From an uncultured Pseudothermotoga sp. (GTDB taxonomy: Bacteria; Thermotogota; Thermotogae; Thermotogales; DSM-5069), in assembly GCA_937995655.1 (NCBI GenBank), contig CALKJI010000009.1, forward strand, positions 1-64,000: a DNA stretch of 64,000 bases. Reading direction: 5' to 3'. The first letter of the stretch is position 1. The number at the start of each line of letters is the position of its first letter. The position numbers and the translations under genes were made by a program. The notes beneath the pieces are model-generated. The model saw nothing but the letters and a program-made list of their open reading frames with translations, had not been told where the DNA came from and did no database searches. Below, one piece after another: positions 19,082-23,853 of this stretch.

Positions 19082-22000
19082 TTAAAAGACATTCATATCA
19101 AAGACACCGGAAACTGGATCGACTGTGAAGGTCTTTTTTGGAAATTCTTTTATGTAGAACTTAAAGGATAGTCTCTGCACAGAAAATGTTGGGTCCACAG
19201 CGAACTGACCTTCGAAGATCAAACCCCAACAATGAAGGTCTTTTTCCAATGTGAACTTCAGATCACTTATGGTGAAGGTCTTGGTGTTCATATCGATGTT
19301 AAAACCAATAGATGGATCAAATCCTGACAAATTGTATGAAAAACGGAGCCTGGATGACCCCTTTACGTAATAACCTGAGAATTCATGTTTTGACTTATCA
19401 ACATAAAAGGTACCCTTCCCTTCAATGGACAATAAATCAAATGGCTGAGCACTCAGTTTGTAGATAAGTCTCACATCTGGATTAGTCATGAAGAAAAAAT
19501 CTTTACCTTTGATTGTAACTGTATTGGTGATTATATCAATGGGTATATCCCTGTTATAAAAGTAAGTAAATTCAGTCACATGCCTGAGGGTACTGTAAGA
19601 GAGATCGATGTTGAAGTTGGTTTTATAAAACTGTTTCCTTTCTATCTGATAAACAGTGTTTGTATAAAGGGCTAAGCCTACTTGCCATGCCTTGAAGGCA
19701 GTACTGGTTTTGAGAATGAGATCATCCCATTTTGATCCAAGTAAATCATAAGCAGTAGAAACTTCAAAGAGCGTTGTAGGTATGTTCAGTTTCCCAAGGA
19801 AAGTGATCTTTGAAAGTTCAGAATTGTTACTGAATCCTGAATATACATTGTTTGAGACAACACCGATTCTCGAATAACCGCTGGAGAGGCTAAGAAAATC
19901 AAAGGGTTTGACGGTCAACTTTGTGTCAAAGACTTGAGCAAACCTGTACCCTAACTGATCGGTACCAACAGCCGACCAAAGGCCTGATAAGAGTGAGTTA
20001 TCAACTGTCCATTCGAACAAACCAAACTTCCACCTAACCGTTTTAAAGGGAAGCTTAGAATCTAACAGAAGATAAGTTCTTTTCGTTGGTTCAAAGTCAA
20101 TCAAGTCATAATAACCAGAAATGTCTAGTTGAAAGTTCTTAAAGACTGGTGGCATCTTTACAGATAATGTACTGCTCAATCTTCCGTTCATATCGATTTC
20201 CTCAAGGTGATCGAAAAGCGACCCCTGATTGTATTGAACTGTGGAACGATGATAGAGAGAGTTTATCGTTAAAGTGAACAAATCAGACGGTAAAGAGATT
20301 TTTTTCAGATATACGTATGGTAGAACCCAGGTTACGCCGCTTGAACTATGTTGTCTGGAAAATTGTATTGACAACTCTTTAATCGGAAAGAGCTGATATT
20401 CAAAATAGTTCATGCCGTTCTTAAAAAACGCTCTCAGCTTTGTAGATATAGGTTCTTTCATGAACAGAGAATTGTCAAATTCATAAACAAAGTCTTGTTC
20501 TTGAGGCGGTTGACGAACGTAATAACTGGACTTGAGCTTAAAAACAGACCATTCTTTTGTTATATCAAGCTGAGCATATCTGCCAGGCTTACTGCCTGAT
20601 TCTTGCCAACCTATTTTGGCACCGATCGTCCCATCTTTGAAGCTGATGTTATAGGAACTTTCGAAAGAAAAACCATCGGATTTTGAGTATCCTGCCTTGA
20701 CCGCGAATGGTTGCGGCCCTTCTCTGAGTGATACAAAATAGACCGGAAAGTACACCGTGGGAATGTCCAAGATGAACATTACCGTATCGTAGGCCGCCAT
20801 ATAATCGTTTTCCTTTATTTCGACTTTCAGAGCTTGTAGTCTATAGTGTGGTTTGTCAAATTCACAAGTTGTGAGGTAACCCATCTGAATTAAAGACTCG
20901 TCACCCTGACTCATCAGAGTTTTGCCTGAGAAGTACAGTGTGTGCTTTTTCTTTTCTTGATCGGTATAGATTGTCTTTCCTCTTATCTCTGCCATCACGG
21001 CATGTCCATCAGAAAAGGTGTATGTGAATTGTTGAGATCTTATTAAAGTGTCCTTCTTTGTGAAAGAAACAGATTCTTCTGCAATGATCCGTTGGGCATC
21101 ACCAGAATCGTTCAAAAGAACTGTCAGTTTTTGGCATTCTACCTTTGAATCTTGAAAGTAAGCCTTCACATCACCCAAAAAGACCACAGAAGTTGCATCA
21201 TAAGTCACTGAGCTCGCACTGACAGTTAATACTTGGATTCCCATAGTGCTTGTGACAACCAATAACAACAGAATCACAAAGAATTTGGAAAATTTTTCTC
21301 TCAATCTGTAGCTAACAGGTGTGTCTAAAAGTAGGAACAAAAAAGTCCCTGTAATTCCAAAGAATATGTTTGGTAACCACGCAGAAAGTATAGGGTTAAT
21401 GAATCTCTCCTTGCCCATTGCACCAAGCCATGCACCTGAGCCTTGGTAAAGAACTATTATCATAAAGGTCAGAATAACTCCCCAGGACTTGCTTTTCAGA
21501 TTAAACATGAGAGACAAGGGTATACCAACTAGAACTATTATAAAAGGTCCCAAAGAGACAGAATAACGACTATGCAATTCCACGATCCAAGGTGAAGGAT
21601 CTATTCCAAGTTTTGCAAAAGTGACAATTCTGTCCCTCAATTCTTCACTCCTCATGTCTTTCGGTGTCTTACCCACACGCATGATGGATTCCAAATCCTG
21701 TTTCAAATCAAGTTCCACTTTGTTGAATTTCACATCAAATCTGAGCATTCCTTCTTTATCAACCCTGTAAAGTCTGCCGTCGTACAGATACCATTTTTCA
21801 TTATCCTTTTGAACTTTCTTGGCTGTGATAATTTCTTCTTCGTTGGGCTCATTTTTAAAAAGAACAACATTTTCCAAAATGGCGTTTTGACGATCATACT
21901 TTTTGACATAAAAATACTGGCTTTCATCAACTTTAGTTAGAACATTTTCACTTATGAACACTTCTGGTCTTCGGTAAACATATTTTGAAAGCGCTTCATT

Positions 22001-22387
22001 CGCTCTCTGGTTATAAACCGGTACCACGCGATCGCTCAACCAATAGGTTAGAAAACTGAGAAAGATCGATAAAATGAGAAAAGGGACTATGAGAACCTTC
22101 AGGGATATTCCATGGACTTGAAGTGCCATCAGTTCATGATCCGTTGAAAGTTGTGATAGAACCCAAAATATGGCAAGTAAAACTCCAACTGGTATTCCCA
22201 GTGCAACAAAATAAGGAAGGTAATAGTATAAAACTCTGAGCAAAACAAGCAAACCAACCCTGTGCCTGACTATCAGATCAGATAATTGGTAAAGAACTTC
22301 CACACTGACGAAGATCACAAAACCGGCCAAACCTATCAATATGGGACCCACTGAGAGCTTACAGATATACTTAGTCAGTATTCCCAA
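19082..22387 (-). CDS. LptF/LptG permease fused to an LptD-like outer-membrane domain
   Basis: A single open frame of ~1100 aa. Residues 1-360 are an LptF/LptG (YjgP/YjgQ) permease: three N-terminal membrane helices, a periplasmic beta domain (about 125-260) and three more helices, the usual full family length. At about residue 362 a second signal-peptide-like stretch (LREKFSKFFVILLLLVV ... VSAS) begins. It leads into an LptA/OstA-like jellyroll (about 385-480), the LptD hallmark TTCEFDKPHYRLQA...PTVYFPVYF near 505-550, and ~500 residues of amphipathic strands typical of an LptD barrel. Start TTG 22387 has a GAAGGTG SD; GTG 22402 is possible. An internal TTG at 21304 would give a separate LptD-like protein but lacks an SD. 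The transported molecule is unknown, since Thermotogota are not known to make classical LPS. Confidence 0.85.
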   Translation of the reverse strand: MGILTKYICKLSVGPILIGLAGFVIFVSVEVLYQLSDLIVRHRVGLLVLLRVLYYYLPYFVALGIPVGVLLAIFWVLSQLSTDHELMALQVHGISLKVLIVPFLILSIFLSFLTYWLSDRVVPVYNQRANEALSKYVYRRPEVFISENVLTKVDESQYFYVKKYDRQNAILENVVLFKNEPNEEEIITAKKVQKDNEKWYLYDGRLYRVDKEGMLRFDVKFNKVELDLKQDLESIMRVGKTPKDMRSEELRDRIVTFAKLGIDPSPWIVELHSRYSVSLGPFIIVLVGIPLSLMFNLKSKSWGVILTFMIIVLYQGSGAWLGAMGKERFINPILSAWLPNIFFGITGTFLFLLLDTPVSYRLREKFSKFFVILLLLVVTSTMGIQVLTVSASSVTYDATSVVFLGDVKAYFQDSKVECQKLTVLLNDSGDAQRIIAEESVSFTKKDTLIRSQQFTYTFSDGHAVMAEIRGKTIYTDQEKKKHTLYFSGKTLMSQGDESLIQMGYLTTCEFDKPHYRLQALKVEIKENDYMAAYDTVMFILDIPTVYFPVYFVSLREGPQPFAVKAGYSKSDGFSFESSYNISFKDGTIGAKIGWQESGSKPGRYAQLDITKEWSVFKLKSSYYVRQPPQEQDFVYEFDNSLFMKEPISTKLRAFFKNGMNYFEYQLFPIKELSIQFSRQHSSSGVTWVLPYVYLKKISLPSDLFTLTINSLYHRSTVQYNQGSLFDHLEEIDMNGRLSSTLSVKMPPVFKNFQLDISGYYDLIDFEPTKRTYLLLDSKLPFKTVRWKFGLFEWTVDNSLLSGLWSAVGTDQLGYRFAQVFDTKLTVKPFDFLSLSSGYSRIGVVSNNVYSGFSNNSELSKITFLGKLNIPTTLFEVSTAYDLLGSKWDDLILKTSTAFKAWQVGLALYTNTVYQIERKQFYKTNFNIDLSYSTLRHVTEFTYFYNRDIPIDIITNTVTIKGKDFFFMTNPDVRLIYKLSAQPFDLLSIEGKGTFYVDKSKHEFSGYYVKGSSRLRFSYNLSGFDPSIGFNIDMNTKTFTISDLKFTLEKDLHCWGLIFEGQFAVDPTFSVQRLSFKFYIKEFPKKTFTVDPVSGVFDMNVF

Positions 22388-23078
22388 ACAAAACACCTTC
22401 ACTTTGCTTGAAGAGTTTCATCTCATCTCTGAAGCATTTATAAGAATCGGATGTTACTATGTATAGAACCGTCTCAACTATATTCGTCGAAAGGTCTGCA
22501 ATTTCTTCTACCCTTTGAGCAATCTCAATCAGCAGAGAATTTCGATCAATGGATTCTTGATTTCCCCTCATGGAATTGAGTAGTTCAATCCTTAACTCCA
22601 AATAAAGTTCATCAACTTCAGCATCTTTTGAGCAAATTTCGAAGGCACCTTCTGTTTGAAGATCTGCAAGCAATCTTAGGCTCTCTTTCAGCATATCCAA
22701 AGCAGATTTTCCGAGTTTGAGAATTCCTGAGATAAAAGCAGTTTGTTGCTCTTTCAACACAGTTATGGTTATCTGCGAAATCCTTCTTGCGTTGTCACCG
22801 ATTCTCTCAAAGATGTTTGCAAGCTGCATGCTGCTCACAATGAAACGAAGTTGAAGACCAGATAGACAGTGAATTCCTAACACTGCGGCCGCTTCTTCTC
22901 TGAGTTCTATCTCCATCTGATCCAAGACATTATCATCCTCTATAACCTGCTTTGCCAGTTTTGTATCTTTGCTCTCTAACGCTTCAAGTGAATTCAGAAA
23001 CATCTTTTGTGTATACCATCCCATTTTCATCAAGGATTTTTTGAAGATTTCCACCTTTTCATCGATTATCCATTTCAT
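22371..23078 (-). CDS. phoU: PhoU-family phosphate regulator
   Basis: About 235 aa, all-helical, with two repeated PhoU three-helix bundles carrying the metal-binding motifs ERIGDNARRI (near residue 90) and EEIADLSTNIVE (near 190). PhoU proteins bind metal clusters and dampen phosphate uptake and signalling. No pst transporter or phoR lies in the window, so this copy sits outside the usual context. Start ATG 23078 has GAGGTG upstream. Its 3' end overlaps the LptF/G-LptD gene. Confidence 0.85.
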   Translation of the reverse strand: MKWIIDEKVEIFKKSLMKMGWYTQKMFLNSLEALESKDTKLAKQVIEDDNVLDQMEIELREEAAAVLGIHCLSGLQLRFIVSSMQLANIFERIGDNARRISQITITVLKEQQTAFISGILKLGKSALDMLKESLRLLADLQTEGAFEICSKDAEVDELYLELRIELLNSMRGNQESIDRNSLLIEIAQRVEEIADLSTNIVETVLYIVTSDSYKCFRDEMKLFKQSEGVLFGNTD

Positions 23079-23853
23079 TCTGAACACCTCTTCCATAACC
23101 TACCTTTTCCTTAAGTACTGTGAAAAAGTCGTAATAATTTGGTCTCAGAAGTGTGAAATGCCTCTCAGATTTTGCGATCTCAATTTGCACAGCCCTGCCC
23201 ACAGGAACACCGTCAACTAAGATTTCACATTCTTTCGAGGCACTTACAGCTACTTTGTTTTGACTGGGTACGATTATGCTCCTGTTTTGCAAGTAATACG
23301 GTGCAATGGGAAGAATCTGAAGAACATCACTGCTGGGAATTACAATTGCTCCACCGAGAGACAAATTGTACGCTGTGGAACCCGTTGGAGTCGAAACCAA
23401 GATTCCATCAGCAAAGAAAGAGAGATTTGAACAACTGTCGAAGACCACATTGAATTCACTCATTTGACGTGAAGGCGTGTGAAATACAATATCATTCACT
23501 GCATGAAAATATTCATCATGCGTGCGAATCTTCACCATCCACCTTTTCTCCAAGATCAATTTATCATCATGTAAATCATTCAAGAACCGTTGGACTTCTT
23601 CAAGCTTGTAGTATGACAAAAAACCGACTCTTCCCGCCTTGAAACCAATGAGCGGAACGTCTAGCAATTTTGCAGCTTTAAGAACTGTCCCATCTCCGCC
23701 AACTACGATGGCAAAATCACACCTTTTATCTATTCTTTCGTTCTTGGCTTCACACATTTGTGTGATTTGAAGATGTGTACCTACTTGCTTGGCTAAATCT
23801 TGTGCTTCCTTTGCTTTATCACTCCTGAAAACTATTGCCGCTTTTCTGTTCAA
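23059..23853 (-). CDS. nadK: NAD kinase
   Basis: 264 aa. Makes NADP from NAD with ATP or polyphosphate. Motif VVGGDGTVLKAAK (near residue 50), VNDIVFHT (NE/D region, near 118), DGILVSTPTGSTAYNLSLGG (near 150) and the beta-sandwich C-terminal domain are all present. Start TTG 23853 overlaps the yggT stop (TTGA). The 3' end overlaps the phoU start by about 20 nt, as expected for a coupled operon. Confidence 0.92.
   Translation of the reverse strand: MNRKAAIVFRSDKAKEAQDLAKQVGTHLQITQMCEAKNERIDKRCDFAIVVGGDGTVLKAAKLLDVPLIGFKAGRVGFLSYYKLEEVQRFLNDLHDDKLILEKRWMVKIRTHDEYFHAVNDIVFHTPSRQMSEFNVVFDSCSNLSFFADGILVSTPTGSTAYNLSLGGAIVIPSSDVLQILPIAPYYLQNRSIIVPSQNKVAVSASKECEILVDGVPVGRAVQIEIAKSERHFTLLRPNYYDFFTVLKEKVGYGRGVQNEMDNR

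Follow-up and report, generated by a model that had tools for sequence, protein, structure and literature searches.

A single gene encodes an LptF/G permease and an LptD-type barrel in Thermotogota and Bipolaricaulota

Two partners of the Lpt machine, an LptF/G permease and an LptD-type barrel, are encoded end to end by one gene in Thermotogota. In the window (the whole stretch of 64,000 nucleotides that was analysed) the gene is a single stop-free frame of 1101 codons on the minus strand (19082–22387), in which the permease is followed by a hydrophobic segment, a jellyroll and the barrel. That both modules belong to one polypeptide had been proposed in the initial annotation of this DNA, and it is confirmed here by sequence, fold and diagnostic residues. 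Beyond that proposal, the fusion was found across Bipolaricaulota, natural splits were found exactly at the linker between the two halves, and LptB and LptA were found as separate genes. We consider it probable that the product is a polyprotein: the permease would insert into the membrane, and signal peptidase I, cutting at a linker that works as a signal peptide within the chain, would free the LptD half for the BAM machinery.

The fused gene and its modules

The reading frame is open from a GTG at 22402 or a TTG at 22387 to the stop at 19082–19084 on the minus strand. An AAGGTG motif is located six bases 5' of the TTG, inside the end of phoU, and 22387, the start originally assigned, is therefore a reasonable choice. 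In most Thermotogota loci examined the fused gene is flanked by nadK and phoU. The features are as follows.

19082..22387, minus strand: fused LptF/G–LptD gene, 1101 aa from TTG (1106 aa from the alternative start GTG 22402), overlapping phoU at its start
21320..22387, minus strand: LptF/G permease module, residues 1–356, with six transmembrane helices, a periplasmic beta domain (about 149–226) and Glu85; from Pfam, AlphaFold2 and Foldseek
21239..21319, minus strand: internal signal-peptide-like linker, residues 357–383, with YRLREKFSK as the basic n-region and FFVILLLLVV as the h-region; the cut is proposed after residue 383 (TMG↓IQ)
20867..21238, minus strand: beta-jellyroll of the LptA/LptD-N type, residues 384–507 approximately; profile matches to LptD and LptA, strands in the models, VSAS (389–392) in the first strand region
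20708..20866, minus strand: LptD hallmark region, residues 508–560, with TTC (Cys508), PHY and PTVYFPVYF; matched in the alignment by Cys173 and VPIFYSPY of E. coli
19085..20707, minus strand: LptD-type beta-barrel, residues 561–1101; from AlphaFold2 and fold matches, with a conserved HCW (Cys1053) close to the C-terminus
22371..23096, minus strand: phoU (Pfam PhoU), directly upstream of the fused gene and overlapping its start; a conserved neighbour, no part of the machine

The permease half is readily recognized. The Pfam model LptF_LptG covers residues 6–352 (E=2.7e-77; 260.7 bits, the curated cut-off being 27.9), a Foldseek search with the AlphaFold2 model of the whole chain returned LptG (E 1.8e-14) as well as LptF for this half, and the glutamate of the coupling helix, Glu85, is invariant in 83/83 sequences. 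The NCBIfam models for LptF and LptG score the half about equally, both under their equivalog cut-offs, and it is therefore classed as an LptF/G permease without assignment to LptF or to LptG.

The second half is not called by the sequence models of Pfam or NCBIfam in the window's protein, where Pfam LptD_N reaches 13.6 bits, under its curated cut-off of 20.4, and profile and fold searches were therefore needed. Among 37 family members, LptD_N matches 23 at E-values up to 0.1 (best 8e-9). A profile of the second half (residues 388–1101), built from 37 relatives and searched against the PDB, retrieved LptD chains (3.7e-7 and 3.2e-5) followed by LptA, and aligned with residues 53–221 of E. coli LptD. 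The TTC, PHY and PTVYFPVYF elements, which the initial annotation had singled out as the LptD hallmark, are indeed present and line up with FTSC173...VPIFYSPY of E. coli; the LptA-like jellyroll described there is present too, with the correction that there is only one between the linker and the barrel.

Structure prediction points in the same direction. AlphaFold2 gave a mean pLDDT of 82.9 for the whole chain and of 87.4 for a second model, of residues 388–1101. When compared with the PDB using Foldseek, LptD was ranked first both for the whole chain (2.1e-21, with LptG/LptF next) and for residues 388–1101 (6.2e-21), and the best 28 fold matches of the latter model were all LptD. The TM-score (0.46) and pTM (0.59) of this model are moderate, so that the fold class is clear and the details are not, and sequence identity in the fold alignments to LptD is very low (about 10%). 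The predicted structure thus contains the LptD-type barrel that had been anticipated from the letters, and by sequence, fold and diagnostic residues the second half is a jellyroll followed by such a barrel.

Cys508 of the TTC motif is conserved in all 83 sequences (83/83), and Cys1053 of HCW in 73/83 (53/63 from Thermotogota and 20/20 from Bipolaricaulota). In the alignment these residues correspond to Cys173 (FTSC) and Cys725 (SSCC) of E. coli, which form one of the two disulfides known between the LptD jellyroll and the barrel. Cys508 and Cys1053 are accordingly placed as the predicted LptD cysteine pair between the jellyroll and the barrel end. The Bipolaricaulota sequences carry a second cysteine at the Cys508 site (TTCxC, 20/20; e.g., loci L140–L144, L149 and L150), and many have FCxxCW as well, a pattern that suggests two disulfides as in E. 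coli.

The barrel half varies in size: in family f9 (Kosmotogaceae, Mesotoga type; L051, L052, L053, L055, L079, L080, L120, L123, L125 and L128) the proteins are about 300–400 residues longer (1434–1494 aa), the extra residues being in this half.

Distribution of the fusion and its natural splits

A match to the fused protein was found in 101 of the 103 Thermotogota genomes and in 90 of 100 from Bipolaricaulota. The frame lengths of genome matches can run through stops (1150 in G054, against 755 + 394 when read stop-to-stop); counts of fused genes are based on stop-to-stop reads. Read in this way, 61 of the 63 Thermotogota sequences that contain the permease and the start of the second half extend over the full length (1062–1469 aa after trimming), and the remaining two have frame breaks in the barrel. 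All 20 selected Bipolaricaulota loci are fused by the same reading. This phylum was recovered, unexpectedly, together with Thermotogota in a scan over 84,980 species with patterns derived from Thermotogota. The initial annotation had named conservation of the fusion as support for a function, and separate genes in close relatives as a refutation; across Thermotogota nearly all stop-to-stop frames are fused, and the close relatives are not split into separate genes.

Frame breaks in the fused gene are found in some draft genomes (G051, G093 and G078). In Marinitoga lauensis (L152 / L094) the gene is broken into several frames; either the gene is decaying or the breaks are errors of long-read assembly.

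In four genomes the halves are separate genes, split exactly at the linker (G064, G015, G149 and G150). The permease of G064 stops at a TGA, and an ATG five bases downstream opens an LptD half that starts with the signal-peptide-like sequence MHLRYKSFSPVLFIISLFFIILSGTKVFSATAYI. G149 and G150, both from Bipolaricaulota, are split at the same linker position and have GTG starts. In G015 two permease genes stand in tandem, and LptD, which has a signal-peptide-like start of its own, is unlinked. A tree of the permeases places G064 deep within a family of fused proteins; G015 clusters with the fused members of its family, there on long branches. The G064 split is clearly secondary, which gives at least one, and probably two, secondary splits. 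It follows that loss of the covalent link need not entail loss of the signal peptide, as would be expected if the halves normally end as separate proteins. The two tandem LptF/G genes of G015 are fast-evolving (L039:7398-9740 and L040:4753-7299, LptD unlinked), and this genome has apparently returned from a fused ancestor to a layout resembling LptF plus LptG plus LptD.

The linker as a probable internal signal peptide

Following the conserved LLDT end of TM6, the window's protein continues with the basic stretch YRLREKFSK, about 10–14 hydrophobic residues (the hydrophobic segment as a whole being residues 369–383), small or polar residues and the first jellyroll strand. This basic-hydrophobic-small layout is common to both phyla, and in Bipolaricaulota the linkers end in the manner of textbook signal peptides (AWA↓QE, AHA↓QG, AQA↓AP; arrows mark the putative cuts). 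The linker is the least conserved of the hydrophobic stretches, with a mean pairwise identity of 0.21 in Thermotogota as opposed to 0.43–0.80 for the six true transmembrane helices. Its median uncharged stretch is 16 residues long, compared to 15 in LptA signal peptides, 19–20 in TM1 and TM3, and 14 in TM5. The motif [FYW][AGS]x?[KEDNQ], which was picked after inspecting the sequences and is absent from the window's own linker, occurs in 37/63 linkers and in 12/15 Thermotogota LptA signal peptides, as compared to 0/63 for TM1, 2/63 for TM3 and 0/63 for TM5. A simple -3/-1 rule does not separate linkers (83%) from TM5 (88%), and is therefore not counted as evidence for cleavage. The confidence of the AlphaFold2 model is lowest at residues 374–384, which form a loop, together with residues 140–148.

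The best candidate for the cut is TMG↓IQ, after residue 383, which aligns with VHG↓EVL and MAA↓EKL in the nearest relatives. The initial annotation had described an internal signal peptide that might be cut near VSAS or left uncut. The evidence favours the cleaved reading, albeit not at this site: VSAS (389–392) is in the first jellyroll strand region, and the cut was thus misplaced by about eight residues.

The sequence of events that we propose builds on computed features (modules, fold, diagnostic residues, conservation, partner genes and the absence of LpxC), from which we infer cleavage, a homodimeric permease, a bridge and a cargo. Residues 1–356 would be inserted co-translationally as an LptF/G permease. 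Because the window's genome has a single LptF/G permease gene, this permease would form a homodimer, to which two LptB subunits would bind. The YRLREKFSK tail and the hydrophobic segment would then serve as an internal Sec signal peptide, re-initiating export of the remainder of the chain across the inner membrane. Cleavage by signal peptidase I near TMG↓IQ would release a free LptD-like protein, to be inserted by BAM into the outer membrane (the toga). Between the permease domain and the jellyroll of LptD, the separate LptA would form a bridge, over which an amphipathic lipid other than LPS, probably a glycolipid, would reach the outer membrane, driven by LptB hydrolysis. With both membrane partners made in one chain, their ratio would be fixed; the fused gene also offers a clean test case for internal signal-peptide cleavage in bacteria.

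Three other accounts of the gene have to be weighed against cleavage. The linker could be a seventh transmembrane helix as in LptC, so that one chain would run across the inner membrane, the periplasm and the outer membrane, and the homodimer would carry two barrels. A transmembrane helix followed by a jellyroll is indeed the layout of LptC, for which the only match in the genome is the LptA-like gene; the linker is hydrophobic enough for a transmembrane helix (mean KD19 2.01), and the fusion is retained across two phyla. On the other hand, the segment is the least conserved of the hydrophobic ones, its ends resemble those of signal peptides and it does not reach the length of TM1 and TM3, and the genomes that are split at the linker show that the link is dispensable there. 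In addition, the outer membrane is reported to be detached at the poles in both Thermotogota and Bipolaricaulota (PMC10665443), and a short tether would be workable only where the membranes are close. Taking these points together, we regard an uncleaved tether as unlikely; its fuller form, in which some or all of the chains escape cleavage and homodimers with two barrels provide a covalent conduit from the inner to the outer membrane for a non-LPS lipid in two phyla, strikes us as improbable. Two products might also arise without proteolysis, if translation started internally at the linker. The ATG of G064, five bases past the permease stop, illustrates that a start at this place is possible in principle, yet a start codon with a nearby ribosome-binding motif is found in the n-region of only 3/83 linkers, below the 5.6 that would be expected by comparison with other permease windows, and we hold this account to be very improbable. 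Finally, the joining of neighbouring genes through a sequencing or assembly error might be suspected from the frame breaks in the draft genomes mentioned above, but the stop-free sequences (61/63 from Thermotogota and 20/20 of the selected Bipolaricaulota) include complete single-contig genomes. Conservation across the two phyla led us to reject an assembly artefact, to which we give practically no weight.

Partner genes and the possible cargo

The initial annotation had suggested a search of the genome for homologues of lptB, lptC and lptA; LptB and LptA are present as separate genes, and a separate LptC is not found. LptB of the window's genome (300.5 bits, curated cut-off 240) is encoded directly downstream of an OmpH/Skp-like gene. 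The single LptA is 207 aa long (LptD_N, 35.6 bits), and LptA is present in 98/103 Thermotogota genomes. There is also one protein of the Omp85/BamA type. In this genome the LptC model PF06835 has no match other than the LptA-like gene, and the linker together with the jellyroll of the fused protein could replace the absent separate LptC.

LpxC was found in none of the 203 genomes searched (0/103 for Thermotogota, 0/100 for Bipolaricaulota), which is in line with PMC5007114 as regards Thermotogae and supports the earlier premise that Thermotogota have no classical LPS. With the LptD-type protein, both phyla possess a near-complete Lpt machine in the absence of LPS, a combination that bears on the age of the outer membrane and on the first cargo of Lpt machines. 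A glycolipid is our leading guess for the cargo, after the argument made for LPS-lacking diderms, Thermotoga maritima included (PMC10353723). That proposal speaks against the alternative that the same machine carries bulk phospholipid or another surface amphiphile (a polysaccharide-lipid) for the toga, instead of a dedicated glycolipid of the outer leaflet. The absence of LpxC from both phyla leaves room for such a cargo, however, and no Mla homologues have been reported in some LPS-lacking diderms including Thermotogae (PMC10665443), so that we treat it as a possibility, if a doubtful one.

Relation to known systems

The fused protein resembles the LptB2FGC complexes of E. coli, Vibrio and Enterobacter in its six-helix permease, periplasmic beta domain, invariant coupling-helix glutamate and an LptB partner scoring above the curated cut-off. 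It differs from them in that there is one permease gene rather than LptF plus LptG, no separate LptC was found, and the permease runs on into LptD. With the LptD translocons of E. coli, Klebsiella and Neisseria the second half shares the jellyroll and large barrel, the TTC...PTVYFPVYF region and, at equivalent positions, one conserved pair of cysteines; unlike these, it is the C-terminal part of a permease gene, in a host without LpxC, at about 10% identity. The cytochrome b/c1 (fbcH) polyprotein of Bradyrhizobium likewise combines a membrane protein with an exported one in a single chain, which signal peptidase cuts at a signal peptide inside the chain. The fbcH product forms a respiratory complex in one membrane, whereas the partners joined in the fused Lpt gene belong to two membranes.

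Borrelia burgdorferi likewise has an Lpt machine in an LPS-less diderm, with a glycolipid cargo proposed, but its components are six separate genes, including LptC, LptF, LptG and LptD, without a fusion (PMC10353723). The same paper describes LptE as poorly conserved and notes Lpt orthologues in T. maritima, citing Putker et al. 2015. Negativicutes and Halanaerobiales have a reduced Lpt cluster, in which a single LptF/G gene is accompanied by LptB and small OstA proteins; these bacteria differ in making LPS, no LptD was found in them and no fusion was described (PMC5007114). In another survey lptD was absent from atypical diderms, and Thermotogae lacked nearly all of the outer-membrane genes tested except bamA (PMC8871954). 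Against this report, an LptD-type protein is found here across Thermotogota and Bipolaricaulota, concealed by the permease annotation. No mention of the fusion was found in the literature searched, which did not include Putker et al. 2015.

Gene neighbourhoods and LptA chains

LptB and the preceding OmpH/Skp-like chaperone gene overlap at their ends (L038:6818-8001), in a run that includes genes for SPOR-domain and helix-hairpin-helix proteins. LptA is directly downstream of a gene for an SLH plus coiled-coil protein resembling Omp-alpha (L098:74-1872), with serS next; Omp-alpha has been described as spanning the Thermotoga periplasm. In several genomes LptA units are chained: three matches were found in a 621-aa frame of G015 (C50:26302-27930), and double matches in frames of 331–346 aa in five genomes (G086, G088, G097, G098 and G099). 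Such chains possibly form a longer covalent bridge.
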